Origin: an uncultured bacterium | Lineage (GTDB): Bacteria > Bacillota > Clostridia > Lachnospirales > Lachnospiraceae | Assembly: GCA_947651225.1 (NCBI GenBank) | Contig: CANSYK010000027.1 | Coordinates: 1 to 43,307, forward strand | Direction of reading: 5' to 3' | DNA: 43,307 bases | Part shown: positions 3,304 to 23,332 of the stretch, one piece after another | Numbering within the stretch: position 1 is the stretch's first letter | Layout of the letters: each line of letters starts with the position of its first letter | Position numbers and translations under genes: made by a program | Notes under the pieces: generated by a model | Databases searched by the model: none | Told to the model about the DNA's origin: nothing | Seen by the model: only the letters and a program-made list of their open reading frames with translations

Positions 3304-4566
3304 TTAATTTGCATCTATAGTTCCCAGAATAATTTCAATATCATACCCCTCCGTCACGTCACCAACAACGAGTTCAGGATTATTGAAATATTGCTTTAAA
3401 TCCTCCCCCTGTCCCTTCTCTCTAACTTTAATTCTTGTTGTAGTCAATGTTTCTGTCATATAGTTTCCAACTTCTGGAACCGTATAGCCTTCACTTTCCA
3501 AAATCTGCTTCTTAGTAGAAGCCAGTCCTGCGATACGGCTTCCATTGAGTACATATATCTTTAAGCCTTTTGAACTAAGCACGTCCTCCTCTGCATCTGC
3601 GGGAGGGTTATCCGAAGGCGATCCTGTAATCATATTTACCGCAGTCAAATTCTGCGCTGCTGTGTATTTTTGTGTATTATTAGACAAATTTTTTAAAGCT
3701 TTTTTCGCTGCCTTTGTATCAACTTCAAATATTTTTCCATTATAAGTTCCTGGTATTCCCCAATAACGATACAACTCAATATCCATCTTCTCATAGGCTT
3801 CTACATATCCTATTTTATTATACTCTGTCAGATTGGAGGTTACTCTTTCATACTGTTCTTTAATGTACTCCGCAATCTTTTCTTCATCATGCCCTAAATC
3901 TCGTATCTGGTTTTTATAGGAATCACTTAACAGGGAAATTTTCATTTTTACCCGCAAAGTCGTGTTAGAACTTGGTGTAACTCCATCCGGCCCTGGCGTA
4001 TTATTTGCTGTACTCTTTGTTTTATATGCCACCTTTACACTTTGCTGAACATAATGACTCTTATATGTTTCCTCATCAATTGCAGTATAATAACTGATAT
4101 CCGTTCCAAGCATTTTCTCGAAAATCAGTACACCATAGCCATATGCATCATTTTCATCTGTGAAATACTGCTTCAGCTTTGAAACACGGATCACCTGTGG
4201 AATCTCCTGATTAATCTGACACAATTTTCGGTACATAACGGAAGGAATTGTGTAGTCTGTACGAACAGGAATCGTAACATAATCCATGTTGAATGTTTTC
4301 GTATTGCAGATTTCAAGCATAACATGTGTAATTTTGTTCTTATCATCCGATACATAAATCAGATTTTTTGAAATCTCATCTGTTGTTGCCTCATCAATAA
4401 TATCTTTCAAACTGTCTGCATCCGTACCACCATTCTCTTCTTCATTCGATAATACAGTATACGAAATTTTATAACTGGCAAATCCAACCCCTAATATCAC
4501 AACGATACAAATCAGCGATTTTAACAAACTTGTTAAAAACATCTTCAATACATTTTTTTTCTTCAT
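3304..4566 (-). CDS. LytR C-terminal domain protein with divergent LCP-like region
   Basis: This 420-residue envelope protein has one N-terminal membrane anchor (about residues 10-32) and a long extracytoplasmic part. Residues about 65-165 keep an LCP-like outline (HVMLEICNTKTFNMDYVTIP, then VRTDY where LCP proteins have PRDTY), but I do not see the usual early Asp/Arg catalytic pattern. Residues from about 325 form a LytR_C domain (IYVLNGSRIAGLA...LESEGY). LCP enzymes attach glycopolymers to peptidoglycan; this divergent version may be regulatory or structural. ATG at 4566 lies 7 bases after AAAGG; GTG at 4569 is an alternative. It is co-directional with the glycosyltransferase downstream. 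Confidence 0.75.
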   Translation of the reverse strand: MKKKNVLKMFLTSLLKSLICIVVILGVGFASYKISYTVLSNEEENGGTDADSLKDIIDEATTDEISKNLIYVSDDKNKITHVMLEICNTKTFNMDYVTIPVRTDYTIPSVMYRKLCQINQEIPQVIRVSKLKQYFTDENDAYGYGVLIFEKMLGTDISYYTAIDEETYKSHYVQQSVKVAYKTKSTANNTPGPDGVTPSSNTTLRVKMKISLLSDSYKNQIRDLGHDEEKIAEYIKEQYERVTSNLTEYNKIGYVEAYEKMDIELYRYWGIPGTYNGKIFEVDTKAAKKALKNLSNNTQKYTAAQNLTAVNMITGSPSDNPPADAEEDVLSSKGLKIYVLNGSRIAGLASTKKQILESEGYTVPEVGNYMTETLTTTRIKVREKGQGEDLKQYFNNPELVVGDVTEGYDIEIILGTIDAN

Positions 4567-7945: not shown

Positions 7946-7965
7946 TAAATTTCCTCCAAAAATAA

Positions 7966-8235
7966 AATCCGTGCATTCTGCGTTGTAGAAACTAAGACAA
8001 ACGTTACCAATGCTGTTAACTCGGCTCCGGCAACCTTGCGGCACACGAAATCACTTACTTAGTGCTGCTAGGTTCCCCTCCTGACACGGTTCATAAGGTT
8101 CCATTGCGCAAGACCAAAACGTCAACGCCACACACATTGGGCTGCTTTGCAATAATAACTCCGAAGCAGAACATCACCCCCGCTATAGCGGATTGCAGGT
8201 ACAGGGCACCGCTAACTCCCCAGCTAGCACGGAAT
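7966..8235 (-). ncRNA. ffs: Signal recognition particle RNA, large bacterial form
   Basis: Read on the minus strand, this holds the Alu-domain motif GCTAGCTGGGGAGTTAGC, the GGTGCCCTGTACCTGCAATC segment, and the domain IV hairpin GTCAGGAGGGGAACCTAGCA with its GGAA loop, just after ATGAACCGT. The termini pair through CCGTGC (8227-8232) and GCACGG (7969-7974). The size of about 270 nt and the Alu domain match the Bacillus/Clostridium SRP RNA rather than the short 4.5S form. It forms the core of the SRP with Ffh for membrane protein targeting. Ends are estimated from the promoter and the closing helix. Confidence 0.93.
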
Positions 8236-8397: not shown

Positions 8398-9918
8398 ATG
8401 ATTTTTCAGGATCACGCAACCATCAAAGAAAAACTGGAAATTCTTTCCGATGCTGCCAAATACGATGTTGCCTGTACCTCCAGCGGAGTTTCCCGCAAAG
8501 GAAATAAAGGAGAAATCGGCAACACGGCAGCAAGTGGTATCTGCCATGCCTTTGGTGCAGATGGAAGATGTATTTCCCTTTTGAAAGTACTTTTTACAAA
8601 TGAATGTATTTATAATTGCAAATATTGTATTAACCGCTCTACAAACGACATACCAAGAGCAACCTTTACACCAGAAGAAGTCTGTACCCTGACAATTGAA
8701 TTTTACCGCAGGAACTATATTGAAGGGCTTTTTTTAAGCTCTGGAATTGTAGAATCACCTGATTACACAATGGAACTGGTCTGCCGCACGCTCCATGACC
8801 TTAGAACCCTCCACCGCTTTAATGGCTATATCCACTGTAAAGCAATTCCCGGAGCCTCCAGGGAACTGATTGAAGAAGCCGGCTGGTATGCAGACCGTAT
8901 GAGCATAAATCTGGAACTTCCAACAGCAAGGGGCCTGCAGGAACTTGCGCCAAATAAAAACAGAACAACAATATTAACGCCTATGCGCCAAATCCAAAAT
9001 GGAATGGCAGAAAGCAGGGCTATGCTTGGAATGAAGGGTGGAAACCAAAGTGCATACTGGTATACACAAAAAAGAACAGGACGTGCTCTGCCAGGTGAAC
9101 AAGCCACTTTGCACACCACCCAGAATTTATTTGGCCAAAAAAAAGCTCCCGAAAAACTTGCAGATAACTCATTAAAAGAAGCACAGACTGCTCCAGACAA
9201 CCTGATTTCCTCTTCCAACACTGGATTAACACAGTGGAAACACAGAGACATCAGCAGAGGATTTGTACCCGCAGGCCAAAGCACACAAATGATTATCGGA
9301 GCCACTGGAGAGAGCGATTATGAAATCATGGCAGTCACAGAAGCCCTTTACCAACGTTTTGACTTAAAAAGAGTATTTTTCTCTGCTTTTATCAACATTA
9401 ATCAGGATTCCTCCCTCCCGGCAGTCAATGGCCAGCCGCTTCTTAGAAGGGAACACCGCCTTTATCAGGCAGATTTTCTTCTGCGGTATTATGGCTTTCG
9501 TGCTGATGAACTGCTGACACAACAGCGGCCATTTTTTAACACCTATTTGGACCCCAAGTGCGATTGGGCGTTAAGCCATTTGGAACAGTTTCCTGTCGAA
9601 ATCAACACAGCGGACTTTAACACCCTGCTTCGTGTGCCAGGAATTGGAACAAAATCGGCACAACGTATCGTTGCTGCCCGGAGGACTGGAAAACTTGATT
9701 ATCATGCGTTAAAAGCAATTGGTGTTGTAATGAAACGGGCAATTTATTTTATTACCTGCAACGGACAGATGATGTATCACTTTTTGAAAATAGATGAAGA
9801 TTATATTACACGAAACCTTTTGGAAAATGATGTCGATGTGATGAAAGGTTTTGATGAAAAAGTAACCTATAAACAACTGACACTGTTTGATGATTCTGAT
9901 TATGAAGACACAAACTAA
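8398..9918 (+). CDS. Putative DNA modification/repair radical SAM protein (TIGR03916 type)
   Basis: This 506-residue protein has the radical SAM cluster motif C70-x3-C74-x2-C77 (CIYNCKYC) preceded by a conserved N-terminal block (DVACTSSG...GICHAF) and a C-terminal helix-hairpin-helix DNA-binding segment (LLRVPGIGTKSAQRIVAARR, about 409-428). It matches the family named rSAM linked to UDG, thought to act in DNA repair or modification. It is longer than I expect because residues about 205-275 look like an insert rich in Gln/Thr/Lys before FVPAGQSTQMI. AGGAGG lies shortly before the ATG. It forms an operon with the next gene, 56 bases downstream. The product is unproven. Confidence 0.88.
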   Translation: MIFQDHATIKEKLEILSDAAKYDVACTSSGVSRKGNKGEIGNTAASGICHAFGADGRCISLLKVLFTNECIYNCKYCINRSTNDIPRATFTPEEVCTLTIEFYRRNYIEGLFLSSGIVESPDYTMELVCRTLHDLRTLHRFNGYIHCKAIPGASRELIEEAGWYADRMSINLELPTARGLQELAPNKNRTTILTPMRQIQNGMAESRAMLGMKGGNQSAYWYTQKRTGRALPGEQATLHTTQNLFGQKKAPEKLADNSLKEAQTAPDNLISSSNTGLTQWKHRDISRGFVPAGQSTQMIIGATGESDYEIMAVTEALYQRFDLKRVFFSAFININQDSSLPAVNGQPLLRREHRLYQADFLLRYYGFRADELLTQQRPFFNTYLDPKCDWALSHLEQFPVEINTADFNTLLRVPGIGTKSAQRIVAARRTGKLDYHALKAIGVVMKRAIYFITCNGQMMYHFLKIDEDYITRNLLENDVDVMKGFDEKVTYKQLTLFDDSDYEDTN

Positions 9919-9974
9919 CGAACTGAAATATAAGAGCAAACAGACTGGCAAAAAAGGAGAGTTTTACTTTCATT

Positions 9975-10769
9975 ATGGATAAACCAACAAGAATCTATCA
10001 ATGTAATAATACCGTTGACGGAATTTTCAGCGCTGTTTATGACGCTGGGCTTTCCGGCTATGGACACCGTTTTATCCGCATACAACCCATACAGGCAGGC
10101 CAAAATGAAAATTATGAATTATTTGCGGAATATGTACAGGTAGAAACGGATTCTAAGAAGACAAAAAGCGTAATTGATGCAGTGCGGCAAAAAATTTCTG
10201 AAAAAGCATATCTCTTCATTATGAGTGCCGTTATCTCTGACTTTCCTGACAGAGGCGATGTTATCTACCAATTTGTTACTTATGGCTTTACACTTGGGGC
10301 AAAAGTGTGCAATGCACTGCAAATTCCCTGTGTTGACAGAATTTTTGCAATGAACCGTGCCGTACAAAATGAAACACATTTTTTTCGGGAATTCCTGCGT
10401 TTTCAAGAAGTGCAAAAAGACCCTTCCCTGCTGTTAGCGGTCATTGAACCAAGGCATCACATTATCCCATTATTGATGGAACACTTTGCAGACCGCTTTA
10501 TTGAGGAATGGTTTATTATTTATGACAAAACTCATCTGGAAGCCTCTTTCCACCAAAAAGGCGGAAACTGGGAAGTGTACCTTTTAACCCCAGAAAAGGC
10601 AAAAAAGCTAGAAGAATTATCAGAACAGAAAGAAGAGTATGTAGATCTGTGGAAAACCTTCTTTCACCAGATTGCTATTAAAGAAAGGACAAATAAAAAA
10701 CTACAGACCAGCATGCTTCCACTCCATTACCGTAAACATATGACAGAATTTCTTGAAGATAATCCATAG
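9975..10769 (+). CDS. TIGR03915 family putative DNA repair protein
   Basis: This 264-residue protein starts with TRIYQCNNTVDGIFSAVYDA, the typical opening of the family that always accompanies the radical SAM protein before it. Middle blocks include RFIEEWFIIYDKTH and the C-terminal ...TSMLPLHYRKHMTEF. In some bacteria this family is fused to a uracil-DNA glycosylase-like domain; here it is the short form with no fusion. Its biochemical role is unknown. The nearest Shine-Dalgarno (GGAG at 9956-9959) is 15 bases from ATG, unusually far, so translation may rely partly on coupling to the upstream gene. Confidence 0.88.
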   Translation: MDKPTRIYQCNNTVDGIFSAVYDAGLSGYGHRFIRIQPIQAGQNENYELFAEYVQVETDSKKTKSVIDAVRQKISEKAYLFIMSAVISDFPDRGDVIYQFVTYGFTLGAKVCNALQIPCVDRIFAMNRAVQNETHFFREFLRFQEVQKDPSLLLAVIEPRHHIIPLLMEHFADRFIEEWFIIYDKTHLEASFHQKGGNWEVYLLTPEKAKKLEELSEQKEEYVDLWKTFFHQIAIKERTNKKLQTSMLPLHYRKHMTEFLEDNP

Positions 10770-10841: not shown

Positions 10842-10860
10842 ATTTTCAAACACGCTCTAA
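10842..10860. repeat. Family B element end (solo)
   Basis: ATTTTCAAACACGCTCTAA matches one terminal repeat of the family B element with one change. On the minus strand its TTAGAGCGTGTTTGA encodes the last residues (Leu-Glu-Arg-Val) and the stop codon of the STM4013-type gene. No second end is seen nearby. Confidence 0.75.
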
Positions 10861-11664
10861 CCTGAAATGCTTATAAGGAACTGTATTCACAATTGGATGG
10901 TTAAACCCATGATAAAATAATCCATCCTCTCCATAACAAGTTCCGTGATCTGAACAGCAGATTACAAAAGTATCTCCTTTTTGCAGAAATGCCAAAAAAA
11001 GCCTTTCCAGTTCACTGTCTACATAACACAGGGCAGCTTTCTGACACTCTATGCTGTCCTTTTTCGCTCCTTCCAGATAGAAATGCACCGGATAATGAAG
11101 GGCAGAAATGTTGATATACATCATTATAAGCTGCCCCTGACAAGCTTTTCTTATTATATTTACCGCACAATTGATCTGATTCGCCGCAGAATCTCTTACT
11201 TTACAGCCAAAAGAAGGATTCCAAAAGCTGTGTTGAAAATAAGACGGCATAACTTTTCCAATTCCTGTCCTCTTATCAAAAAAACTCAAACCTCCAATGC
11301 AATAGGTTTCATACCCGGCTATTTCCAACCCCTGAACAAAAGTTGCTCCCTGGAAAGAATATGAACCTTTCGGTGCTTTTCTTCCCATACCAATATCTTC
11401 TGAAAAAAACAGAGTTTCCCGTTGCTTCATATTTCGTATCTCAACATCTACCGGAAAAAAACCAGCAAACATTGCCTGATGAGACGGATAAGTAAAATTG
11501 CCTGGCGCATGACACTTCCTCCAGTCACCAAACTGCGCCAGTATCGGCGTCTTTCCGCATTCCTGCTGTGCTACAGCCACATCATACCGCAAAGAATCCA
11601 GACACAAAAAAAGAATATTGCATTTTCCAACAATATCATTCATATCAATGCTGTTTATTTTCAT
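10846..11664 (-). CDS. STM4013/SEN3800 family hydrolase (alkaline-phosphatase fold)
   Basis: This 272-residue cytoplasmic protein has the sulfatase/phosphodiesterase-like pattern: LCLDSLRYDVA near residues 20-30, the nucleophile region FTYPSHQAMFAGFFP near 58-72, and metal-ligand region CCSDHGTCYGEDG...YHGFNHP near 235-260. It closely follows the STM4013 family, part of the conserved STM4011-STM4015 neighbourhood; its substrate is unknown. It lies 50 bases after the STM4014-type gene. The last four residues and stop are contributed by a family B element end, so the native C terminus may have been slightly altered, though all catalytic blocks are kept. Confidence 0.88.
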   Translation of the reverse strand: MKINSIDMNDIVGKCNILFLCLDSLRYDVAVAQQECGKTPILAQFGDWRKCHAPGNFTYPSHQAMFAGFFPVDVEIRNMKQRETLFFSEDIGMGRKAPKGSYSFQGATFVQGLEIAGYETYCIGGLSFFDKRTGIGKVMPSYFQHSFWNPSFGCKVRDSAANQINCAVNIIRKACQGQLIMMYINISALHYPVHFYLEGAKKDSIECQKAALCYVDSELERLFLAFLQKGDTFVICCSDHGTCYGEDGLFYHGFNHPIVNTVPYKHFRLERV

Positions 11665-11709
11665 CCCTGCCTGTCCTTATCAGAAACTGTCATTCCCCAA
11701 CTTGTTCAT

Positions 11710-11730
11710 TTAATTTATTTACAGTTCCTT
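11710..11730. repeat. Family C end repeat (21 bp)
   Basis: These 21 bases are identical, on the opposite strand, to 21439-21459 at the start of a family C element. On the minus strand they supply the last codons (Arg-Asn-Cys-Lys) and TAA stop of the STM4014-type gene. Confidence 0.75.
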
Positions 11731-12722
11731 ACTTCGCTACACATTTTCTGCATCATCTCTATTTGTCTTTTATAAATCCTGTTTTCATCATAAATATCCT
11801 GATAAATCAAATCACCCTGTCCATTGATTTCGATAATATACGGCTTCATTGTCCCCTTTTCCAACAGTACGTCAATTCCCGCCATAGAAAGCTGCGGAAA
11901 ACATTTCATCGCCTGTCCGCACACATTTTCCACATCAGCCATTGTCTGTTCAGAAAGTCCAAGCCGTTCCATGGCAAGTGGTGCATTGTTCAAATGCAAG
12001 TTTGTAACTGGCCCTTTTGACTGCCTTGCAAGCACATACTCCATTCTGCCAAACTGCCATACCACTCTTAAATCATAACTTTTCCCACAAAAAGAAGCTT
12101 TTGGATGCCACCGCTCCACAATTACTCCTAAAGACAAAACAGACTCCAAAAGCGGCTGAATCTCTTCCCGCCGTTCCAGGCGATACAATGTTTTCGTGTT
12201 AAATAGCGTTCCTTTTTGCAGACAGCAGGAGGCATAAAGAACCTCCCTGTTTTTTCCCGGAAACCGCCGGTATGCTACCACACCGGCGGCTCCAGAAGAA
12301 TATACAGGTTTTACAAAAACGGAAGAAACTTTTTGTTTCTCCATGATTTCATGCAGTTCTTCTATTGTCCTTACCTTGTCAGAAAGCAGTTCCGTCACAG
12401 AAACGTTATTTTTGATTAACGTCTTTTTACATTGTCCTTTATCCAGAACAGATAAAATTCCCTCAGGGGAATTCAGAAAACGACAATCTTCAGCCGATAA
12501 CTTCTCCAACTGTAACCGATAGCCTTCTAAAAGACCATTCATTTCAGACAAAACAGACTCCTTAAAGACAAAGGGATCAAGCTTTACCACATCATTCTGC
12601 CATACAGCACCATTTATCTTTTGCCACTCTACAAAATCAACTGGTATCCGCAGTTTTTTCGCTGCCATCAAAAAATATTCTGTCCGTTTTGAATTCTTTG
12701 CACCGACAAGTTTCACCCCCAT
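11715..12722 (-). CDS. STM4014 family ATP-grasp protein
   Basis: This 335-residue protein carries ATP-grasp features: the lysine loop VFVKPVYSSGAAGV (about 154-167), VERWHPKASFCGKSYDLRVV near 217-236 (ribose/Mg region), and metal ligands in AGIDVLLE...YIIEINGQGDL (about 285-310). ATP-grasp enzymes ligate a carboxylate to an amine or thiol through an acyl phosphate, often on peptides. It is the STM4014 member of the cluster and its ATG overlaps the STM4015 stop (TAATG), implying translational coupling. Its final residues come from a family C repeat. GTG a few codons in is an alternative start. Confidence 0.87.
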   Translation of the reverse strand: MGVKLVGAKNSKRTEYFLMAAKKLRIPVDFVEWQKINGAVWQNDVVKLDPFVFKESVLSEMNGLLEGYRLQLEKLSAEDCRFLNSPEGILSVLDKGQCKKTLIKNNVSVTELLSDKVRTIEELHEIMEKQKVSSVFVKPVYSSGAAGVVAYRRFPGKNREVLYASCCLQKGTLFNTKTLYRLERREEIQPLLESVLSLGVIVERWHPKASFCGKSYDLRVVWQFGRMEYVLARQSKGPVTNLHLNNAPLAMERLGLSEQTMADVENVCGQAMKCFPQLSMAGIDVLLEKGTMKPYIIEINGQGDLIYQDIYDENRIYKRQIEMMQKMCSEVRNCK

Positions 12723-13573
12723 TATTCTGTTAACATTGGATAACGGTATACTTCACCATCATATTCATCGTCTTCTTGCTGGTCATCTGTCCGAACATCC
12801 ATAGGCAGCTTGCCCAATTTCGCTACCATTTCATCGGAAAGATAATGATATTCCAAATCTACCTCTTTAATATTTTCAAAAGTAGGCAATTCTTTTAACA
12901 GAATTTCGCCACCTTTGTCTGTCAATGTACCATATGATAATGCCAGCTTTTTAATCTGCTTCATATATTTACTTTTTACAACAACTTCTGTAATTTCATC
13001 CTGTATTTCACTATCCATAATCCCCAATGTTTCTAACTTTGGAAAATCTGATTTTTCCAACAGATTTTTTATATCAGATACCTCCCCATCAAATCCATAA
13101 TCTTCCACTCCAATATAAAGCATCAGTTCTTCAAGATTTGGCAGATCCGCTTTCTCAATACTCTGAATGACTGAAACTGGCAGTCCCCCACAAATAATCT
13201 CAAGACTTTTCAGATTCGCATGCTTTATCACACCAAGCTCCAACCCCGTGCTTCCCTTAATCGTCAGCATTTCCAAACCCGGAAGCGCTGTCCAGAGCTT
13301 ACTGTAATCAGCCTGCTCAATCCAGGAAACCTCACATTCTTCATAGTCCATATCTCCAACAAACAAACTCTTCACATTGGCAAATTTTTCCTTATGCTCC
13401 ACAATTCCATCAATAATTGCCTGTGCACCATTGTCCCATGACTCGCCCCAGCATCCGATAATTACCTCTTCTAACTGTCGTAACTCTGGATCTGCAATAA
13501 TATCTGCAATCATAGTCTCTGCATTTTTTTCGTCAATGTCCTCCCAGGTATAAAAAAACTTTTTACTTTTCAT
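12722..13573 (-). CDS. STM4015 family leucine-rich-repeat protein
   Basis: This 283-residue protein is built of irregular leucine-rich repeats (PGLEMLTIKGS, ANLKSLEIICGG, PNLEELMLYIG, PKLETLGIMDS, KQIKKLALSYG, ENIKEVDLEYH). It contains the STM4015-like block FVGDMDYEECEVSWIEQADY. After the repeats comes an acidic tail ending DEYDGEVYRYPMLTE that is not leucine-rich. The chosen ATG (13573) follows GGAGG and a GGGGAG; upstream ATGs at 13600 and 13585 lie before or in the Shine-Dalgarno. It is the first gene of the STM4015-4014-4013 run. Role unknown; it may be a scaffold or the substrate of the cluster's enzymes. Confidence 0.85.
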   Translation of the reverse strand: MKSKKFFYTWEDIDEKNAETMIADIIADPELRQLEEVIIGCWGESWDNGAQAIIDGIVEHKEKFANVKSLFVGDMDYEECEVSWIEQADYSKLWTALPGLEMLTIKGSTGLELGVIKHANLKSLEIICGGLPVSVIQSIEKADLPNLEELMLYIGVEDYGFDGEVSDIKNLLEKSDFPKLETLGIMDSEIQDEITEVVVKSKYMKQIKKLALSYGTLTDKGGEILLKELPTFENIKEVDLEYHYLSDEMVAKLGKLPMDVRTDDQQEDDEYDGEVYRYPMLTE

Positions 13574-13703
13574 GGTACTCCCCATCCTCCTTCTCTTCAT
13601 TTTGATAAAACCAACTTGCTGACTTTACTTTTACCATAAATTCTAACATATCCTGATACTTCTGTCACTAAGGAATCGGTACAAAACGGTTTGTTTATCT
13701 AAC

Positions 13704-13722
13704 ACCAGCCTTAAATAGCAAC
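13704..13722. repeat. Family A half-repeat, degenerate
   Basis: ACCAGCCTTAAATAGCAAC resembles the ACCAGCCGTGAATAGTAAC arm of family A with three changes. It lies about 130 bases before the STM4015-type gene. Confidence 0.5.
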
Positions 13723-13804
13723 AACACATCTATTTTCCAGGAATATCAAATCTCTTATCAAAGCCAGTAAACCTAAATACGTCCATCACTTCACCTGTAT
13801 CATA

Positions 13805-13841
13805 AAGAAAACCCCCAAAGCAAAAAATATTGCTTTGGGGG
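13805..13841 (-). terminator. Rho-independent terminator of tRNA-Pro
   Basis: CCCCCAAAGCA (13812-13822) pairs with TGCTTTGGGGG (13831-13841), followed on the minus strand by TTTTCTTT. It lies about 50 bases beyond the tRNA 3' end. Confidence 0.9.
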
Positions 13842-13889
13842 CTGCCCCTGCCAAGGTTTGTCTGCACTCGCCTCTATAAAACCTTGTAA

Positions 13890-13963
13890 TCGGCGTGACA
13901 GGATTCGAACCTGCGGCCTCATCGTCCCGAACGATGCGCTCTACCAAACTGAGCCACACGCCG
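13890..13963 (-). tRNA. tRNA-Pro (anticodon CGG)
   Basis: On the minus strand the acceptor arms CGGCGTG and CACGCCG pair. The D-arm region is TGGCTCAGTTTGGTAGAGCG, the anticodon stem-loop is CATCG-TTCGGGA-CGATG with anticodon CGG, and the T-arm is GCAGGTTCGAATCCTGT. The discriminator is A and CCA is not encoded. A C1-G72 pair is typical of bacterial tRNA-Pro. It has its own terminator and lies within the gap that divides the STM4011-4015 genes. Confidence 0.95.
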
Positions 13964-14032
13964 AAGTGCATGACTATATTAGCACTATTTTCAAAAAATT
14001 TCAATAGTTTTTTCTTTTTAATATACAATGGA

Positions 14033-14061
14033 GTTACTATTCAGGTTACTATTCACGGCTG
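14033..14061. repeat. Family A half-repeats, tandem
   Basis: GTTACTATTCAG (14033-14044) is followed directly by GTTACTATTCACGGCTG (14045-14061), two left arms in tandem with no matching right arm. They lie immediately after the stop codon of the M15 peptidase gene. Another left arm lies upstream of that gene at 14748. Confidence 0.8.
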
Positions 14062-14068
14062 TTTTTTC

Positions 14069-14707
14069 TTATTTTAAATACTTTTTATTCATATACCCAG
14101 CACGCCCATCAGACAAGAGCACTTTGGCGTACCAGTCTTTAGTATACATCACCTTGACCTTTTTTCCATAGGCTACACGTTTGTAATTACCACCAAGCTT
14201 TGTTTTGTGCTTCCAGACAACAAGCCCCTTTTTAATATTCACCGTTTTTTTCCATGTCTTTTTAAAGTTATTTGGCTTACCATACTGTTTCTTTAATGCT
14301 TTCGTTGTACTTCCCCACTTTTTCAAATAAAAATGCGGAGTATCCTGGAATGATTTCCAGTCCCCACCCCATCCAAGGCCAATACTGGAAGACTTTGCAA
14401 TAGTAGCTACCTTCTTAAGTGTTGCTGTATCGTAAAGCAATTTGTTATCATTAATGGCAATATCGAAAGCAATCCCCCACATATGCTGACTGCTATATGT
14501 GCTTCCTTTCGCATTTGTTACTATATTTCCCGGCTCAGTTCTACCTTTGGCATATAATTTATTTTGGTATTTTTTAGTTCTAAATCCCTCTGTGATAATA
14601 AGATAAATCCCTTTTTTCTCACATGCTGTAAGCAACTTAGTGAGCTTATAATCTAACCATGGATGCAAAAGCGTTCTGTCAATTCTAATATCATGTTTCT
14701 TTGTCAA
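14069..14707 (-). CDS. M15 family peptidoglycan peptidase with C-terminal SH3-like domain
   Basis: This 212-residue protein has the M15 zinc peptidase pattern: SSQHMWGIAFDIA around residues 72-84 (H-x6-D ligands), GLGWGGDW and TPHFYL around 112-129, as in CwlK-type L-alanyl-D-glutamate or D-Ala-D-Ala peptidases. From about 155 an SH3b-like wall-binding domain follows (KKGLVVWKHKTKLGG...VLLSDGRAGYMNKKYL). No signal peptide is visible, as in many phage endolysins, which may be its origin. The start is TTG at 14707 with GGAG 7 bases upstream; the nearby ATG is out of frame and stops at once. Family A half-repeats stand on both sides. Confidence 0.87.
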   Translation of the reverse strand: MTKKHDIRIDRTLLHPWLDYKLTKLLTACEKKGIYLIITEGFRTKKYQNKLYAKGRTEPGNIVTNAKGSTYSSQHMWGIAFDIAINDNKLLYDTATLKKVATIAKSSSIGLGWGGDWKSFQDTPHFYLKKWGSTTKALKKQYGKPNNFKKTWKKTVNIKKGLVVWKHKTKLGGNYKRVAYGKKVKVMYTKDWYAKVLLSDGRAGYMNKKYLK

Positions 14708-14747
14708 TTCATTTCTCCTTTCTCATTCACCAATAACCTAATCCTCT

Positions 14748-14764
14748 GTTACTATTCACGGCTG
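14748..14764. repeat. Family A half-repeat
   Basis: GTTACTATTCACGGCTG is a left arm only, 41 bases upstream of the M15 peptidase gene and in the same orientation as the copy at 14045. Confidence 0.75.
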
Positions 14765-15183
14765 ATTTCTGAAATTAGTCAAACTCATTGTGCTTGCACA
14801 TAAGAAGTTGATTATTTTCTGATTGCAAAAAGCAATTTCCAAACACGCTCTATTATAAAACAACCTCTCTCTGTTCCATTCTTAATAGTAATATATGCTT
14901 CATAAGATACTTTGCCATATCTATTGCACATCTTTTTTCAAGCACGCTCTAAGCAGCGCTATCAATGAAATTATGTAAATCTCTAATCTTCTCAAAAATA
15001 ATCTTCCAACGCAAATCCTTAAGGATTTCTTAATATCTTTTTCGATAAAATAACCTCGTTACTTATCATAGCTGACTGATACACCGACCAATTACTTCCC
15101 CTCAGCCCAAACCCAGGATCATTGACTGATATAAAGGAGTATGCTTAAATAGTCAGCAGGAGTGTGTTTGAAAGGAGAAACAA
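14765..15183. other. Gene-free region with family B end remnants
   Basis: No plausible gene is seen. TTGCAAAAAGCAATTTCCAA onward to 14852 is one end of family B (30 bases with one change), and TTTTTTCAAGCACGCTCTAA at 14933-14952 is a second, weaker end. GTGTTTGAAA at 15163 is a still shorter match beside the Shine-Dalgarno of the ABC gene. A promoter for that ABC operon should lie here but I cannot place it with confidence. Confidence 0.55.
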
Positions 15184-15945
15184 TTGAAACATAGTATACT
15201 ATCCGCAAATGGATTGTGCAAAAGCTTTGCGCACAACGGAGGACAGGTTCATGTTCTTTCACAGGTTGATTTAGAACTTTATGAGAGAGATTTTACCGTA
15301 ATTATGGGGGCTTCCGGTTCTGGAAAATCTACACTGCTTTATGCTTTAAGCGGTATGGATCAAGCGACAGCGGGGCAGGTAATGTATGGAGGCGAGAATA
15401 TTGTCGATGCAGTTGAAAAGAGGCTGGCATCACTTCGGCACAGTGATTTTGGCTTTATTTTCCAACAAATGCATCTTGTCAGCAATCTGTCGTTATTAGA
15501 AAATATTGTGGTACCAGGCTATTTAAATAAGAAAGTATCTGTTAACCAAGTGAAAGCACGGGCAGAAGAGCTATTACAGATGATGGGGCTTTCCCATATC
15601 AAATCCCACCTGCCATCACAGGTTTCCGGTGGAGAGCAGCAAAGGTGCGCCATTGCCAGAGCAGTAATCAACAACCCAAAGCTTTTATTTGCCGATGAGC
15701 CGACCGGAGCACTGAATCGAAAAAATACAACCGAGGTTTTAAATCTTCTGACTGATTTAAATCAATCCGGGCAAAGTATTTTGATGGTAACACATGATAT
15801 CAGGGCAGCTTTACGGGCTACAAGACTTCTTTATCTTGAAGATGGAAAGATTGTCGGGGATCTGCCGCTGCCTGACTATAGCCTGGAAGAAGAAAAAAGC
15901 CGTGAAGCACAGGTAAATGCCTGGCTTTCAGCAATGGAATGGTGA
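15184..15945 (+). CDS. ABC transporter ATP-binding protein (MacB/LolD type)
   Basis: This 253-residue ATPase has Walker [10 protein letters not shown] at residues 42-50, Q-loop FIFQQMHLV, signature VSGGEQQR near 142, Walker [13 protein letters not shown] and H-loop THD. It belongs to the exporter group that pairs with FtsX-type permeases for peptides, antibiotics or lipoproteins. TTG start with AAAGGAG 6 bases before it. The permease starts 9 bases after its stop. The pair runs against its minus-strand neighbours and separates STM4011 from STM4015. Confidence 0.92.
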
Positions 15946-15953
15946 GGTGCAAG

Positions 15954-18299
15954 ATGGAAATATTTACTTTACTCAAGGCAAATATTCGTTATAAGAAAGG
16001 ATCTTTTATCAGTATCGTTCTTTTAATGATAATTATTGCAATGTCACTTACAACAATTTTAAGCGTAAAAGAAAACTGTAAAAACAGCCATGAGACTGCG
16101 CTGGATGAAGTAAACGCAGGTAACATAACTACCTTTATTAGTACAAGAAGGCTGACAGAAGAGCTTATTCATTCCGTGGAAAACCATCCTCTTGTTGAAA
16201 AAATGGAACGATATGCTGCAGTATGCACTGACGAGGCAGAGTCAGGGGAAAATTCTTATGGCAATCCATGGCTCATGACAAAATTGCGCAGCGGTTACAA
16301 ATTGTATAACGATGATTTGACAGCATCCGAAAAGGAAATGCCGTCTCTGAATCAGGGAGAAATCTATATTACACAAGGAGTTGCAACAAGACTGGAGTGC
16401 CAAAAAGGAGATACCATTAAAATTTCTACTATTGGCGGTAAATACAATTTTAAAGTCAGTGGAATTTTTGTAGAGCCAATGTTTGGTTCTTCTACGATTG
16501 GTTGGAAACAGTTGTTTATCAGCGATAAAGATTTTGAACAGATGTTAAAGGATTGTAAGGATAATGAAACCGAGGAGCATTATTCTGATTTTCAGATTGT
16601 TCAGCTATACAAAGAAAAAAACTGTAAACTTTCTGATGGCCAGTTCCGTCGAAAGCTGAACCTTGATACAGGAATTATAAATAATTCCTCCGGCTCTCTG
16701 ACAAGAGATATGTCCATACGATATACAAATATTTTTTCTGACATTATTTTGTCTGTGCTTATGGTGTTTGTTATCTTTTTGTTTATCATTGTGCTGATTG
16801 TTATGGGGCACAGTATTTCAACAGGAGTAGAAATGGAGTATGTGAACCTGGGTATTTTAAAATCACAGGGATTTACCAAAGGAAAAATCAGAACAGTCTG
16901 GTTTTTACAGTATTTTCTGGCACAGTTTACAGGAACCGTTATCGGAATGCTTCTAACTGCACCATTGATCCAGATGCTTGGAAATGTATTTCAACCGATT
17001 ACAGGAATTATAGCAGGAAAAGATATTTCCTTTTTGAAAATTAATCTGGTGATGCTTTCCACTTTGCTGATTTCAGGGATTCTGATTTTTACCATGACCA
17101 TAAAATTAAACAAAATTTCGCCTGTCAGAGCTATTTCCGGTGGACACAGCGATATTTATTTTGACAGCCGAATCAAAGCACCTGTCTGTAAAAAAGGACT
17201 TTTAGGAAGCCTTGCATTACGGCAGCTCACTTCCAGCAAACGGAGCTATATTGGAACAGTTCTTATTGTTTCCATTCTGGTCTTTTTTATGATGACAATA
17301 ACAATCCTTGGGAATATTGTGGACTCTAAATCAGCAGTAGAGGCTATGGGTGCTATCTATACAGAGTGTGATATAACGTTTCAGGATTATAATCCAGATG
17401 ACGAACTGTTAAAATCCATAGAAAAGGTAGTAGAAAAATATTCTCCAATAGAGAAGAGCTATTATATGTCTGGTATAGACTTATCTGTAAATGGTGAAGA
17501 AATCCACTGCCAGATACAAAAAAATCCAGAAGTCATAACAGCTGCCAAAGGAAGAGTCCCACTTTATGATAATGAAATTGCCATAACTGAGCTACTTGGT
17601 GAAGAACTGGATTTGAAGATGGGGGATGCGGTCACTGTTGCCTATATGGATAAAAAAGACAAGTATATCATATCGGGAATATACCAAAGTATGCAAGATG
17701 CAGGACTAGAATTTATGATGCCATTAACAGGGGCAGAAAAAATCGGAATTTCTTATATCACTTTTGCCAGATACAGCCTTTCCATTCCGGAAAAAGCCAG
17801 GGAAGTTACTGATGCACTAAATGATTCTTTTAGTGATATCCTTGTGGCAGAAAATGGAACCGAGGGTAATGTAATGGAGAATACTTATGTTATAGCAATT
17901 AATGTAATGAAGGGTGTCATTTTTTCCTTCTCCATTCTTTTTGCACTGCTTGTTGCGATGATGACATGCTCAAAGATATTTTTGCAGGAGAAAAAGGATA
18001 TTGGTATTTATAAAGCAATTGGTTTTACATCCGCACAACTCCGTTTACAGTTTGCATTCCGCTTTTTCATAATAGCTTTGGCTGGTTCGGTACTTGGCAC
18101 AATTTTGAGTATCACGTTGTCCAGACATCTCCTTAATATTGTTTTGCGGAAAATGGGCATTACTAATCTTGTCGCACGCTTCACAACAACTACTATTGTT
18201 GTCCCGGCCGCACTTATTTCTATCTGCTTCTTTCTGTTTGCTTACCTTGTATCAAGAAAGGTAAAACAGGTAGAAGTGTGGGAATTAATGACAGAGTAA
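15954..18299 (+). CDS. FtsX-like ABC transporter permease
   Basis: This 781-residue inner-membrane protein has an N-terminal membrane segment (about 16-36), a large outside domain (about 45-255), three segments in the FtsX region (about 265-385), then a second half with a segment near 430, an outside domain (about 455-640) and three segments to the C terminus. That doubled layout is common in MacB/BceB-like exporters. The start chosen is ATG 15954, 8 bases after the ATPase stop, with GAGGTG before it; an ATG at 15939 overlaps the ATPase end and has no good binding site. Substrate unknown; self-protection against a peptide is possible. Confidence 0.9.
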   Translation: MEIFTLLKANIRYKKGSFISIVLLMIIIAMSLTTILSVKENCKNSHETALDEVNAGNITTFISTRRLTEELIHSVENHPLVEKMERYAAVCTDEAESGENSYGNPWLMTKLRSGYKLYNDDLTASEKEMPSLNQGEIYITQGVATRLECQKGDTIKISTIGGKYNFKVSGIFVEPMFGSSTIGWKQLFISDKDFEQMLKDCKDNETEEHYSDFQIVQLYKEKNCKLSDGQFRRKLNLDTGIINNSSGSLTRDMSIRYTNIFSDIILSVLMVFVIFLFIIVLIVMGHSISTGVEMEYVNLGILKSQGFTKGKIRTVWFLQYFLAQFTGTVIGMLLTAPLIQMLGNVFQPITGIIAGKDISFLKINLVMLSTLLISGILIFTMTIKLNKISPVRAISGGHSDIYFDSRIKAPVCKKGLLGSLALRQLTSSKRSYIGTVLIVSILVFFMMTITILGNIVDSKSAVEAMGAIYTECDITFQDYNPDDELLKSIEKVVEKYSPIEKSYYMSGIDLSVNGEEIHCQIQKNPEVITAAKGRVPLYDNEIAITELLGEELDLKMGDAVTVAYMDKKDKYIISGIYQSMQDAGLEFMMPLTGAEKIGISYITFARYSLSIPEKAREVTDALNDSFSDILVAENGTEGNVMENTYVIAINVMKGVIFSFSILFALLVAMMTCSKIFLQEKKDIGIYKAIGFTSAQLRLQFAFRFFIIALAGSVLGTILSITLSRHLLNIVLRKMGITNLVARFTTTTIVVPAALISICFFLFAYLVSRKVKQVEVWELMTE

Positions 18300-18355
18300 C
18301 TAGCTGAAACTTGTTTGAAAATTCAGCCAGGCAAAAGCATTGGCATTTAATCACC

Positions 18356-19228
18356 TTAATAATACCTACTGTGCCAGTCAAAACCGGCTGGAATCCGAAA
18401 TGCAGGATAGGGCAGGAAAGAGCCGGGAACTACTTCTTTCCGGTTGCAGTAAGAAAGATAACAGCTGCACTCTTTTCTGCCGCAAACCATAGTTTTATCT
18501 GGTGCATTGTTATAATAAAAGTTTCCAATCGTTTGCCGGGTCAGATTACAATGGCGCATCGTCCCATCCGCTTCCACAAAACGATGATCCATACAAAGCG
18601 TCTCATCCGACTTATGATGAGAAAGCTCCATTTCAAAATAAGGATCTATCTCCAGAAATACCTTTTTTTCCGACATAGTATAAGCCCTGCCCAATCCGTC
18701 CATTTTATTTACCCAAAGATAGACAGAATCGAAAAGAGCATGACGCAGTTTCCTGATTATTGAAATATATTCTGGTACACCCACCACACCAACACAATAG
18801 GAAATTTTTTGTTTTGTCAACTGTCTGCACTGCTCTACAAACGCTTCAAGCGAAGTCATCTCCGGGTGAAAGGTTCCCCACAAGCGCAGCTTATCTATAT
18901 CTCCTCCCTGCCCTTTAAAACAGGAAAGCATCTGCTTTACTGGAAAACTGAAATTACTTTGAGCACCTACAGCGTCCAGATGTGCATTACAGCTCAATCT
19001 GGCAAGGCCTTCCCAATAGTAAGAATGAATCAACGCCTCACCATAGGGAACAATCTGCACAGCCCCCTGAACCATTTCCCCATCACAGGCATTTTCAACA
19101 AATCGAAAAAAAGCAGCTTTATCATTCTGTTCTTCACGCAAACTGCCTTTTTTTTTCGAGAAAGGGCAATAACTGCAAGAATAATTGCAGGATTTCAAAC
19201 TCCCCCGATAATACCATTGTCGCTTCAT
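18356..19228 (-). CDS. STM4011 family radical SAM protein
   Basis: This 290-residue enzyme has a radical SAM cluster motif C14-x3-C18-x2-C21 (CNYSCSYC) very near the N terminus, preceded by YYRGSLKSC as in the STM4011 family. A C-terminal cysteine-rich stretch (MRHCNLTRQTIGN, then CGRKECSCYLSYC) could bind a further iron-sulfur cluster, as in SPASM-like enzymes that modify peptides; this is inference. Its ATG overlaps the STM4012-type stop by 4 bases (ATGA), so the two are coupled. Reaction and substrate are unknown. It is convergent with the ABC permease. Confidence 0.88.
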   Translation of the reverse strand: MKRQWYYRGSLKSCNYSCSYCPFSKKKGSLREEQNDKAAFFRFVENACDGEMVQGAVQIVPYGEALIHSYYWEGLARLSCNAHLDAVGAQSNFSFPVKQMLSCFKGQGGDIDKLRLWGTFHPEMTSLEAFVEQCRQLTKQKISYCVGVVGVPEYISIIRKLRHALFDSVYLWVNKMDGLGRAYTMSEKKVFLEIDPYFEMELSHHKSDETLCMDHRFVEADGTMRHCNLTRQTIGNFYYNNAPDKTMVCGRKECSCYLSYCNRKEVVPGSFLPYPAFRIPAGFDWHSRYY

Positions 19229-20508
19229 TTTTTAAATCCTTCCATCTTTCTTCGCACATCAAATGATATTAATTGCGGACCTAAGCAGTCTGACAAAGAA
19301 ACCCCCTGCTCTGTCAGAGTAATAAAATCATTCGTTATTGTAACATATCCATTCTGTTCCCATTCTTCTATTACAGGAAAATCCTCCTGTACCCTTTTTG
19401 AAAAATGATTTCTATAATCTTTGCAGTTGATTCCTTTTCCAAAAAGAATATGCCGGATTACATATCTTCTCTTCTGCTCATCTGGCGATAAAAGAAAGCC
19501 ATGGGAAATTTGTAAATAATCTTTTGTTTGAAGATATGTATCCAAAATAGAACGACAATGTTCCTGTTTTACAGCATATGGCATACAAAAATGTAAATTA
19601 CCAATATAACTTCTTCCACCACAGCCAATTGATACCGTATTCCCAAATCCACAGGAGGATTCCGGGAGAGAAGCATCAGACGCTTTCACAAAACGGCGCA
19701 TAGAATGAGGCTGATATCCTTCTGCTTTTAAAAATTCTCTTACATGGCAATACATCGTATAGGCATCAGAAGAAGGTATGACATTTTTTTGATAAAGAGC
19801 CGTTTCTGGCTTTACATAAAGCGGATAGACAAAAAGCTCTTCCGGTTCAAAAGCAACTGCCTGTCTTAAAGAGTCAAGCAAACTGTCCGTTGTCTGTCCC
19901 GGAATTCCATAAATCAAATCAATATTTAAGCAGTCAAACGCCTTTTCTTTTATAGCATGCAACGCTCTTTTTGCAGATTCCACATCATGAAAACGGCACA
20001 AGGCGGCAAGCTCTTTTTCCTGAAAACTCTGGACGCCAATGCTGATTCGGCTGACCCCTTCATCTTCTAATATAGCAAGCTTTTCCAAAGTCGTCTGGTT
20101 TGGAGAAGTCTCAATAACCACAGAAGCGTTTTCTTTCAGCGAAAAATAATTTTTTGCCATAAAAAAGACTCTGCGAAGCAGGGAAACCGGTAAAATCAAA
20201 GGAGTTCCACCACCTAATGTCAAGTCTTGAAAAGATACTTGATCTGGCATCTTTTCAGAAAACTGTTTCGCATGACGTTCCATCGCATCAACATACTCCT
20301 GCATCACCTGCTCTGTCTGTCCGGCTACTGAAAATAAATTACAATAGCCACACCTGTACTGACAAAATGGGATATGAAAATAAAGGCTGTTTTCTGCCCT
20401 GCACAGATACGGGACATACTCTTTTAATTGGACATTCTTTAATGAAGCATATGCCGTTTTATGCGGGTAGCTGTACATATACTGCTGATAGGGATTTTCT
20501 ATCTGCAT
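19225..20508 (-). CDS. STM4012 family radical SAM protein (HemN-like)
   Basis: This 427-residue protein has the HemN-type motif YFHIPFCQYRCGYCNLF with C49, C53 and C56, then LTLGGGTPLIL, VVIETSPNQT, SIGVQSFQEKELAALCR and LIYGIPGQT, and a C-terminal winged-helix-like HemN_C region. HemN-like proteins include coproporphyrinogen dehydrogenase, heme chaperones and methyltransferases, but the STM4012 subfamily is defined by its neighbourhood and its reaction is unknown. AGGAGG precedes the ATG. First gene of the STM4012-STM4011 pair; the other three cluster members are 4.8 kb downstream on the same strand. Confidence 0.9.
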   Translation of the reverse strand: MQIENPYQQYMYSYPHKTAYASLKNVQLKEYVPYLCRAENSLYFHIPFCQYRCGYCNLFSVAGQTEQVMQEYVDAMERHAKQFSEKMPDQVSFQDLTLGGGTPLILPVSLLRRVFFMAKNYFSLKENASVVIETSPNQTTLEKLAILEDEGVSRISIGVQSFQEKELAALCRFHDVESAKRALHAIKEKAFDCLNIDLIYGIPGQTTDSLLDSLRQAVAFEPEELFVYPLYVKPETALYQKNVIPSSDAYTMYCHVREFLKAEGYQPHSMRRFVKASDASLPESSCGFGNTVSIGCGGRSYIGNLHFCMPYAVKQEHCRSILDTYLQTKDYLQISHGFLLSPDEQKRRYVIRHILFGKGINCKDYRNHFSKRVQEDFPVIEEWEQNGYVTITNDFITLTEQGVSLSDCLGPQLISFDVRRKMEGFKK

Positions 20509-21438: not shown

Positions 21439-21594
21439 AAGGAACTGTAAATAAATTAAGGAACAAGCTGCGAAAAATGCCTTTTCAAGTGCAAAGAAAA
21501 AACATAGGCGATACAGGCATCAGCACGGCTTTTTGACCTGTGCAATCAAAGAAATAGACAAGCTAAGATGTAGCGTTATTTTTCTACAGTTCCT
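21439..21594. mobile_element. Family C MITE-like element
   Basis: About 156 bp bounded by AGGAACTGTA (21441-21450) and TACAGTTCCT (21585-21593 region), with no coding capacity. Its first 21 bases are identical to 11710-11730 on the other strand, and a smaller element with the same ends is at 34110-34162. Its right end supplies the TAG stop of the GH25 gene. Confidence 0.6.
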
Positions 21595-23332
21595 AAAATT
21601 TCAATTTTACCGTAGATGGAATATATCCTTCCAATGTCTTTGTGCCCTTACTATATTTTATATGATATACAATCGCTGTTGATTTAAAATAAGTACGCCC
21701 AACATAAGTAATCTTTGCAGACTTTGGAATAGAAGCTACCTCATTTCCACTCAGGCCAGGCGTCTCATACAGCTTTGTAGCCGTATTGACTGTCGCCTTC
21801 TTTCCTCCTGGTAAAGTTGAGACTGTTAGATATGTGTAACCACTGTAATACTTTACACCATCTACTATTTTATAAGCTCGAATCCTGTAAAAATATTCTT
21901 TGTCAGCTTTTAATGAAGTATTCTCCCATGTAGTCTTCGTACCCGCAACCGCTTTTACTTTTGTATAAGTCTTTCCATTATAGGTAGCTTTCCGATAAAT
22001 CTGATACTTTGTCGCCTGGTCATTCTTTGCCCAGGATAATGTGATTTTTTTTGTTCCAGATACTCCCTTAAAAGAAGTCACTTTTGGTGGAATAATTTTA
22101 AAAGTGGTACTTACCCTCCCTTTGTAATTTCCAGTGCCGACAGCAGTAATTGTTGCCATTCCGACCTCGGTATTTTCAGAATAAACCAGATTATAATTGG
22201 TTCCCTTTTTCAGTGTTTTCCCATCCAGCGTAAGTTTTGGAGCAGGAGTAATTGCCTTGCCTGTGTATGCCTTTGAAGCAACAGAAGCAAATTGGGCATT
22301 TTCTATTGTAACAGCATCTGGATTTTCATCCATATCTTCACTGGCATACCAGAAATTGCAGTCTACCTTACCAGAAATCCCATCAATTTTACCTGAACTT
22401 GTATATTGCCAAAATTCATACTTACCTGTATATGTCGTTTGGGAAGTATAATTTGCCAGCCATATTTTATAATTTTTCTCAAGAGCAGCACCGTCGATCA
22501 ATGTCGAGAGATCACTTTTATTGGCATAAACCATTGGTGTATACCCTGCCGCTTTAATAGTATCACAAAAAGCAGTACAATTTTTAGTTGCTGCCGATTT
22601 ACTGAGCTTTGCATTATATTTCCGCCCTGTCTTTACCCCTCCTACTGTTGTCGTTTCATAATCATACACAATTGGAAGCGTAATATCATAGTTTTTTGCC
22701 TTCTCTATACAATATTGTGCCTCTTCTTTTGCTTCACTGGTATTAATTGCTTCTGTATAATAGTAAAGCCCGACTTTTAGTCCTGCTGCAAGAGCGCCTT
22801 CCACATGCTTTTCAAAACAAAGATCAGCAGCAAGCGTACCGGCAGCGCCATACCCACGGTAACCAACGCGGACAAAAACAAATTCAATTCCATCAGCTTT
22901 TACCTTGTTCCAGTCAATCGTCGGCTGATAATAAGAAACATCAATCCCATTATAGATGTTCATTCCAGTATAAGTATTTGAGTGTGTATATTTAATTCCA
23001 GTATACGGATTTGCAGACTGACTGGCTGACTTTAAACTACGTCCATTTAAAATATTCATCGTATCATCAGAATCCTCCTGTGAATAAAGATGCCTGTCCG
23101 CTTCAGGGTCTCCCACCATAACAGAACGACCATTTACGGTAGCAGTCTCCGTCTTTGCAGATTCAGAAACCAGAGCTTTTGCGCTGCCCTGAACAGAATT
23201 CGCAACAATCCCTGTTATAAGAGCAGCAGATAATAATAAAGTAAGTATTTTTTTCCTCATATTCATATGCAAGGGCAGCCTGTAAATCACTTCCCCTTTT
23301 CCTTTCTTTTTAATAGTAACTTTTAATAACAA
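21593..23332 (-). CDS. Secreted GH25 lysozyme with Fn3 and SH3-like domains
   Basis: The protein is up to 579 residues. A signal peptide (MRKKILTLLLSAALITG...) starts about residue 26. The GH25 domain (about 125-330) shows GIDVSYYQPTIDW, FVRVGYRGYG, IVYDYETT and EFWQYTSSG, consistent with muramidase activity on peptidoglycan. After it come a bacterial Ig/MBG-like segment (APKLTLDGKTLKKGTNYNLV), a fibronectin type III domain (about 415-500) and an SH3-like end. Start is uncertain: TTG 23332 (AAAGGAG 4 bases away), GTG 23290 or ATG 23263/23257. The stop codon lies in a family C element end, so the original C terminus may have been different. Confidence 0.88.
   Translation of the reverse strand: MLLKVTIKKKGKGEVIYRLPLHMNMRKKILTLLLSAALITGIVANSVQGSAKALVSESAKTETATVNGRSVMVGDPEADRHLYSQEDSDDTMNILNGRSLKSASQSANPYTGIKYTHSNTYTGMNIYNGIDVSYYQPTIDWNKVKADGIEFVFVRVGYRGYGAAGTLAADLCFEKHVEGALAAGLKVGLYYYTEAINTSEAKEEAQYCIEKAKNYDITLPIVYDYETTTVGGVKTGRKYNAKLSKSAATKNCTAFCDTIKAAGYTPMVYANKSDLSTLIDGAALEKNYKIWLANYTSQTTYTGKYEFWQYTSSGKIDGISGKVDCNFWYASEDMDENPDAVTIENAQFASVASKAYTGKAITPAPKLTLDGKTLKKGTNYNLVYSENTEVGMATITAVGTGNYKGRVSTTFKIIPPKVTSFKGVSGTKKITLSWAKNDQATKYQIYRKATYNGKTYTKVKAVAGTKTTWENTSLKADKEYFYRIRAYKIVDGVKYYSGYTYLTVSTLPGGKKATVNTATKLYETPGLSGNEVASIPKSAKITYVGRTYFKSTAIVYHIKYSKGTKTLEGYIPSTVKLKF

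Follow-up and report, generated by a model that had tools for sequence, protein, structure and literature searches.

Organization of the STM4011-STM4015 locus

The stretch of DNA analysed here (the window) comprises 43,307 nucleotides of contig CANSYK010000027.1 (assembly GCA_947651225.1) from an uncultured bacterium of the Lachnospiraceae, and carries on its minus strand one gene of each of the five families STM4011 to STM4015. They encode an alkaline-phosphatase-superfamily hydrolase (STM4013, 10846-11664; NCBIfam NF038075, 353 bits against a cut-off of 250), an ATP-grasp ligase (STM4014, 11715-12722; NF038074, 308 against 175), a leucine-rich-repeat (LRR) protein (STM4015, 12722-13600; NCBIfam, 334 against 275), a radical S-adenosylmethionine (SAM) enzyme (STM4011, 18356-19228; NF038073, 283 against 200) and a HemN-like radical-SAM enzyme (STM4012, 19225-20508; NF006067, 520 against 380). 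An earlier reading made from the letters alone (the sequence-only reading) had proposed these five minus-strand genes, and all five were found where it placed them and above the curated cut-offs. The coupling through ATGA or TAATG overlaps that it described holds for STM4012/STM4011 (ATGA) and STM4015/STM4014 (TAATG) but not for STM4014 and STM4013, between which lies a gap of 50 bases. The genes form two halves, STM4013-STM4014-STM4015 and STM4011-STM4012, separated in the window by 4.8 kb.

In records from Bacillota, Bacteroidota, Pseudomonadota (Salmonella included), Actinomycetota and Deinococcota, members of these families are annotated as 'STM40xx family protein', 'hydrolase' or 'radical SAM protein', with no pathway given. 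Likewise, no paper on the function of the STM4011-STM4015 families was found in the open-licence PubMed Central (PMC) literature, in agreement with the earlier statement that their product is undescribed; PMC3844500 and PMC2784778 each name a single gene of these families in a table.

Co-occurrence and gene order of the five families

Loci of relatives were fetched by STM4015 alignment, and the best 80 of at least 576 confirmed stretches (the genome_contigs loci) were compared. All five families were present within one locus in 65 of the 80, and 61 of the 80 displayed the exact order 4015-4014-4013-4012-4011; hence, the five-gene arrangement is a real unit and not the result of chance. The window and G008, the nearest relative fetched, are split. 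In 13 of the 80 loci the fetched stretch lacked STM4011. A genome-wide search covering eight of these 13 together with G008 found the gene above cut-off elsewhere in all nine (9/9), and in 18 of 18 genomes or records overall; among the other loci, L069, L104, L106 and L128 lay outside this search, and L075 and G010 are one contig, which ends just past STM4012 and in which no STM4011 was found.

Among 299 Bacillota genomes, STM4015 appeared above cut-off in six and STM4011 in six, and these were the identical six genomes, including that of the window. Sixteen of 61 relatives possessed STM4015 and 14 of these also STM4011, the two others being G010 and G024 (65% complete). In neither sample did a genome carry STM4011 above cut-off while lacking STM4015, the 14 control genomes were free of above-cut-off matches in both searches, and STM4015 matched in only 2 of 198 genomes of a Bacteroidota sample, one of them above cut-off, namely the sample's centre genome. 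As these counts indicate, the system is rare, patchy and retained as a whole. The expectation that the five families occur together was borne out, and the lack of co-occurrence that the sequence-only reading had named beforehand as a refutation did not materialise in the genome samples or the loci.

The gene order 4012-4011-4015, as in the window though devoid of the spacer, was observed in a Cetobacterium contig (L127) and in a Bacteroidota genome (L139). Some genes appeared split into two or more frames: STM4012 in L141 (Eubacterium plexicaudatum), STM4014 in L088 and STM4013 in L116.

A glutamate fixed at the C-terminus of STM4015

STM4015 has an LRR fold and a size of about 290 residues, and, judging from its homologues, the protein probably begins at an internal ATG of the open reading frame (ORF) listed in the window. 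Glu was the last residue in all 127 distinct STM4015 proteins, and by record names this fixed end spans seven phyla (Bacillota, Bacteroidota, Fusobacteriota, Pseudomonadota, Actinomycetota, Deinococcota and Cyanobacteriota). In the window the conserved tail comprises the last eight codons, YRYPMLTE (12725-12748, minus strand), the invariant Glu being part of a short motif preceded by a variable acidic linker. Across 118 sequences, tail entropy was 0 at position -1 and 0.53 at position -2, which is occupied by Thr, Gly, Ser or Ala, and positions -4 to -8 were highly variable. The kind of residue differs among proteins from -2 to -8, so that the chemistry probably takes place at the Glu itself rather than on a more extended core.

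The codon use at the terminal Glu (GAA in 87 and GAG in 31 of 118, followed by all three stop codons) shows that the constraint acts on the protein level. Moreover, the Glu persisted in the 17 of these 118 cases where STM4014 is not the gene assigned next, including six that lack any assigned gene downstream. Codon use and gene context led us to reject a Shine-Dalgarno or overlap artefact as the cause of the tail conservation. Among LRR proteins below the family cut-off, L045 and L046 do not end in Glu, a thin negative control as the two are identical.

A solved relative, 2ra8 of Bacteroides fragilis (Q64V53; 44% identity), was deposited by structural genomics as an 'uncharacterized protein' with no function assigned, and has a longer N-terminus. 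Its tail, ...YPMITE, terminates at residue 354 of a 362-residue chain, and we take the eight residues beyond the Glu to be a purification tag. Outside the tail, the most conserved stretch of the family is DMDYEECEVSWI (window 13319-13354) in the LRR part, with a block entropy of 0.49. This block, possibly a functional surface, is the least confident part of the STM4015 model (predicted local distance difference test, pLDDT, 72).

Multiple or tandem STM4015 copies were observed in L032, L033 and L034 (genome G007), L065, L122, L128, L051, L052, L056 and L150; in G007 there are five STM4015 genes whose bodies have diverged and whose [LM]TE ends are preserved. Bacteroidota-type STM4015 proteins (L049, L137 and L139) contain an additional N-terminal stretch, which seems to resemble a WGR domain.

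The ligase, the radical-SAM enzymes and the hydrolase

The predicted model of STM4014 (pLDDT 95) gave as its nine best VIA-align matches members of the LysX/ArgX/RimK group, with 3vpb and 5k2m at the top, and RimK and RimK-RpsF structures were among its best structural matches in both VIA-align and Foldseek. The ATP-grasp fold of STM4014 as modelled is therefore closest to the LysX/ArgX/RimK clade, by a modest lead. Identity to the RimK structure was about 15%, and a sequence search against solved structures was weak (best E 0.023).

STM4012 matched HemN (1olt, E 3.4e-27) and the NocN methyltransferase (9p2u, E 6.7e-19) in the PDB, and presented the CxxxCxxC motif in 74 of 74 alignment rows. 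STM4011 combines CxxxCxxC with C212, C227, C249, C254 and C256, each missing from no more than one of 79 rows, and these further C-terminal cysteines look SPASM/twitch-like, of the type that binds an auxiliary cluster. The C-terminal part of SkfB (6efn, E 0.0012) was the only PDB profile match of STM4011 at E values up to 0.1; the SPASM models of Pfam, applied to five STM4011 homologues, gave one match above cut-off, two below and two without match, and none for the window protein. A C-terminal HAD domain was fused to 57 of 81 distinct complete STM4011 homologues, with a GNxxxD- or GDxxxD-type motif in 54 of the 57. The STM4011 of the window had no HAD match, and those of L057-L060 are likewise devoid of the fused domain, so that the cluster, which had been called complete, is so as regards the five families and not as regards this domain. 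In Salmonella the HAD domain is encoded by a separate gene overlapping STM4011.

The best PDB match of STM4013 was the nucleotide pyrophosphatase 2gsn (E 1.7e-7). Residue T58 was invariant (73 of 73 alignment rows), the protein also keeps Asp/His residues resembling metal ligands, and we take a Thr at this place to be the nucleophile in nucleotide pyrophosphatases/phosphodiesterases. Given the Thr in all 73 rows, a formylglycine-type sulfatase was not favoured. A gene of the STM4013 family lies beside NUDIX and lasso-peptide B2 genes on a Streptomyces albidoflavus plasmid (L054:6998-8919), in a stretch without the other four families, and a comparable lone copy was seen in L152.

The PADLOC models of anti-phage defence gave no match for four of the five proteins and only partial radical-SAM matches for STM4012 (PDC-M51A, E 1.6e-8; pVip, E 1.5e-4). 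A reading as a defence system was set aside, as no full-length match to these models supported it.

A proposed carrier-protein pathway

Our proposal builds on the families themselves, their co-occurrence, the invariant tail, the STM4014 fold and the conserved motifs; from these we infer that a ligation occurs and at which carboxylate, as well as the sequence of reactions, the building block, the product and its release. STM4015 would act as an LRR carrier, or as a protein substrate, whose working part is the C-terminal tail ending in Glu. STM4014, with its LysX/RimK-type fold, would activate a carboxylate of this terminal Glu with ATP and couple an amine to it, most likely an amino acid or an amino-acid derivative. 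The tethered group could subsequently be remodelled by the HemN-like STM4012 and by STM4011 as a radical-SAM enzyme with an auxiliary cluster, and phosphate groups would be removed by STM4013, as a phosphodiesterase/phosphotransferase-type enzyme with a Thr nucleophile, and by the HAD domain where it is present. The LRR protein might thereby provide a platform recruiting the enzymes, in a scheme like the amino-group carrier protein (AmCP) biosynthesis carried out by LysW and LysX; after modification in place, the group would be released in the case of a carrier, or retained in the case of a modified protein.

Loading of STM4015 by STM4014, followed by modification in place, is the simplest reading of an always-free Glu end encoded beside a ligase whose closest structural matches attach amino groups to protein ends, together with two radical-SAM enzymes and phosphohydrolase-type enzymes. 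Taken as a whole, from the carrier or substrate through amine loading to later remodelling, this is the account towards which we lean slightly. A broader idea has in our estimation an even chance of being correct, namely that the cluster represents an unrecognised kind of carrier-protein biosynthesis spanning several phyla, with the LRR protein bearing on the carboxylate of its last residue a growing molecule destined to become an amino-acid-derived metabolite or cofactor. The sequence-only reading had suggested a biosynthetic or protein-modification pathway, which the evidence favours and which is sharpened here to a carrier or substrate with a C-terminal Glu and its ligase. If the proposal is true, the cluster would add to LysW-type proteins and pearlin peptides another scheme working on the end of a ribosomal carrier, in this case using radical chemistry, and the tail would offer a handle for finding the product. 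The predicted adduct that STM4014 would place on the last Glu of STM4015 makes this orphan cluster testable by mass spectrometry.

The ligases LysX, ArgX and RimK act on a C-terminal Glu, that of LysW or of ribosomal protein S6, to which they attach amino acids. In LysW/ArgW with their partners LysX/ArgX, and also in the Vzb22-type AmCPs of Streptomyces, the terminal Glu belongs to a conserved C-terminal motif, as it does in STM4015, and LysX/ArgX have the ATP-grasp fold in common with STM4014. AmCPs use the gamma-carboxylate of the terminal Glu when lysine, arginine and certain secondary metabolites are made (PMC9303977, PMC10433800), and later enzymes act on the tethered group (PMC9303977), as we propose for STM4011-STM4015. 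However, LysW is a small zinc protein, the positions conserved in 95% of 114 STM4015 rows include no Cys such as the zinc ligands of LysW, and the partner enzymes here are of radical-SAM and phosphohydrolase types. RimK, the ribosomal protein S6 glutamate ligase, shares with STM4014 the fold and several active-site residues and modifies a protein substrate at its C-terminus, as proposed for STM4014, whereas the proposed substrate here is an LRR protein encoded together with radical-SAM enzymes. In the pearlin/3-thia-amino acid systems, an amino-acid-derived group on a ribosomal carrier peptide is combined with a radical-SAM enzyme (PMC9303977), as proposed here, and loading is tRNA-dependent through a PEARL enzyme (PMC9016710), a gene not assigned at the STM4011-STM4015 cluster. 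STM4011 and STM4012 have cysteine motifs and sequence similarity in common with SkfB-type and HemN/NocN-type enzymes, respectively, but their proposed substrate is a group tethered to STM4015. By family, STM4015 is not a LysW and STM4014 is neither a LysX nor a RimK; what we suggest by analogy is a similar way of working.

Several observations weigh against this proposal. The lead of LysX/ArgX/RimK over other ATP-grasp ligases amounted to only some 2 Z units for the best VIA-align matches; at rank 9, ArgX (22.6) was level with DcsG (22.4) and with glutathione synthetase (22.3), scores near 21 followed for D-Ala ligases and inositol kinases, and the Vip1 kinase appeared at rank 8 in Foldseek. 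E203 of STM4014 was offset by two columns from E178 of RimK in hhalign, and STM4014 fell below the family cut-off as RimK or LysX (NCBIfam: 18.9 bits against 143.4 for RimK, 25.4 against 350 for MptN and 23.8 against 300 for CofF). A fold shared with LysX/ArgX/RimK shows no function by itself. None of 99 distinct STM4014 proteins contains the GSWGR motif by which LysX/ArgX recognise EDWGE, and EDWGE itself is present in none of 126 STM4015 proteins, that of the window ending in PMLTE. Within clades, conservation extends to the tail upstream of the Glu, which must therefore serve at least additionally for recognition, and a fixed protein end is not unique to STM4015, because an accessory protein of about 100 residues found in other phyla ends in Asp in five of five cases. 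Part of the fused HAD domains may be variant or inactive, given that no more than 34 of the 57 showed DxDGT. No carboxypeptidase or protease that could release a product recurs among the neighbour groups, and the homologue set is skewed to Clostridia.

Alternative explanations

STM4014 might instead add one or more amino acids permanently to the end of STM4015, as RimK does to its substrate, the radical-SAM enzymes then decorating them with nothing released; the modified LRR protein would itself be what functions, for instance as a protein-bound cofactor or as a regulator. RimK and RimK-RpsF are indeed among the best matches of STM4014, neither a protease nor an exporter recurs near the cluster, and the LRR domain of STM4015 is of the protein-binding kind, LRR domains usually binding proteins. 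However, the frequent HAD domain and the phosphodiesterase-fold enzyme suggest a phosphorylated small-molecule intermediate, which decoration would not need, and we regard this possibility as unlikely. The last 6-10 residues of STM4015 could also form the core of a precursor resembling ribosomally synthesized and post-translationally modified peptides, either graspetide-like or C-terminally modified, with the LRR part as a giant leader. SkfB, the only PDB sequence match of STM4011, is a sactipeptide synthase, graspetide ligases occur in the Foldseek list of STM4014 at rank 11 and below, and tandem STM4015 copies resemble multiple precursors; against this stands the tail itself, in which only Glu(-1) is invariant while Thr, Gly, Ser or Ala fill -2 and -4 to -8 vary widely, so that no other tail residue can be an obligatory modification site. 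A precursor of this kind therefore seems distinctly unlikely. It would be very improbable, in our opinion, that the tail is a docking or sorting signal alone and that STM4015 recruits enzymes acting on a free small molecule: conservation of the C-terminus would be expected from docking as well, and DMDYEECEVSWI in the LRR part could bind a substrate or an enzyme, but a Glu fixed across seven phyla beside a ligase of Glu-using fold would then be a double coincidence.

The 4.8-kb spacer contains, as the sequence-only reading located them, a tRNA-Pro(CGG) (13889-13964, minus strand), an endolysin-like M15 peptidase (14069-14707, minus strand; Pfam PF13539, PHROG endolysin 6.7e-41) and an ABC ATPase with an FtsX-type permease (15184-18299, plus strand), a LolD/FtsX-type pair convergent with STM4011. 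Their position between both halves could suggest that the M15 gene and the exporter serve for release and export in the pathway, and the ABC pair adjoins 4011-4012 in G008 as well. Nevertheless, no M15 or permease homologue (>60% coverage) was detected in 112 loci of varying length, in which all ABC ATPase matches were below 40% identity, and no tRNA-Pro was present in 40 relatives' loci. In G008, the half 4013-4014-4015 has left-hand neighbours in common with the window and 4012-4011 lie on a different contig, flanked by the ABC pair and by homologues of the window gene at 20598 and of the GH25 gene; in G008/L140 the ABC pair is preceded by homologues of the window genes at 28293 and 28957, a response regulator and a histidine kinase. 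Two-component genes with an ABC pair are an arrangement typical of stand-alone modules. As neither the M15/permease genes nor the tRNA-Pro recur and the ABC pair, encoded on the opposite strand, stands beside two-component genes, the spacer is most likely a product of rearrangement and not machinery, and the M15 peptidase, the ABC pair and the tRNA-Pro are probably not part of the system. The earlier suggestion that the peptidase or the exporter could belong to it is not supported on these grounds, and we give it next to no probability. As for insertion of an element at the tRNA-Pro, the 3' end of this tRNA has no duplicate within the window.

Neighbouring genes

Among the 25 largest neighbour groups, named by reading their sequences, ABC ATPases were the most frequent (17 loci), followed by MATE proteins (10 loci) and regulator-like groups. 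No recurrent group of small ORFs was seen near the cluster among those of at least 70 residues, the only sizes compared, and a riboswitch was found neither at the window's cluster nor at those of eight loci, the flavin mononucleotide riboswitch of L061 lying past STM4011. In records of Actinomycetota, Deinococcota and Methylobacterium (L050, L051, L052, L055, L056, L150 and L151), a DUF6745 protein is paired beside the cluster with the aforementioned protein of about 100 residues, whose pattern is GExTGHxH...HEEH/HDEH...QREYxP with a final Asp in the five counted; this pair was not found in the other loci scanned. No literature on DUF6745, nor on 2RA8/Q64V53, was found in the open-licence PMC collection.

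Proximity of the cluster to a tRNA gene is shared by the window with a few relatives: tRNA-Gln and tRNA-Ala genes occur within 130 bases after STM4011 in L060 (13920-13993) and L077 (14224-14296), and a tRNA-Gly precedes STM4015 in L060 (8052-8124). In the window, a bacterial large signal recognition particle RNA (7969-8232, minus strand) overlaps the listed start of the ORF at 5627-8044, the true start of which, given this overlap, is probably further in. A radical-SAM/helix-hairpin-helix protein and then a DUF4130 protein follow (8398-10769), a pair that also adjoins 4013-4014-4015 in G008 (88% and 85% identity), the sole such locus among those scanned. Finally, a GH25 lysozyme-type protein with endolysin-like PHROG matches is encoded at 21593-23332, and lies near STM4012 in G008 too.

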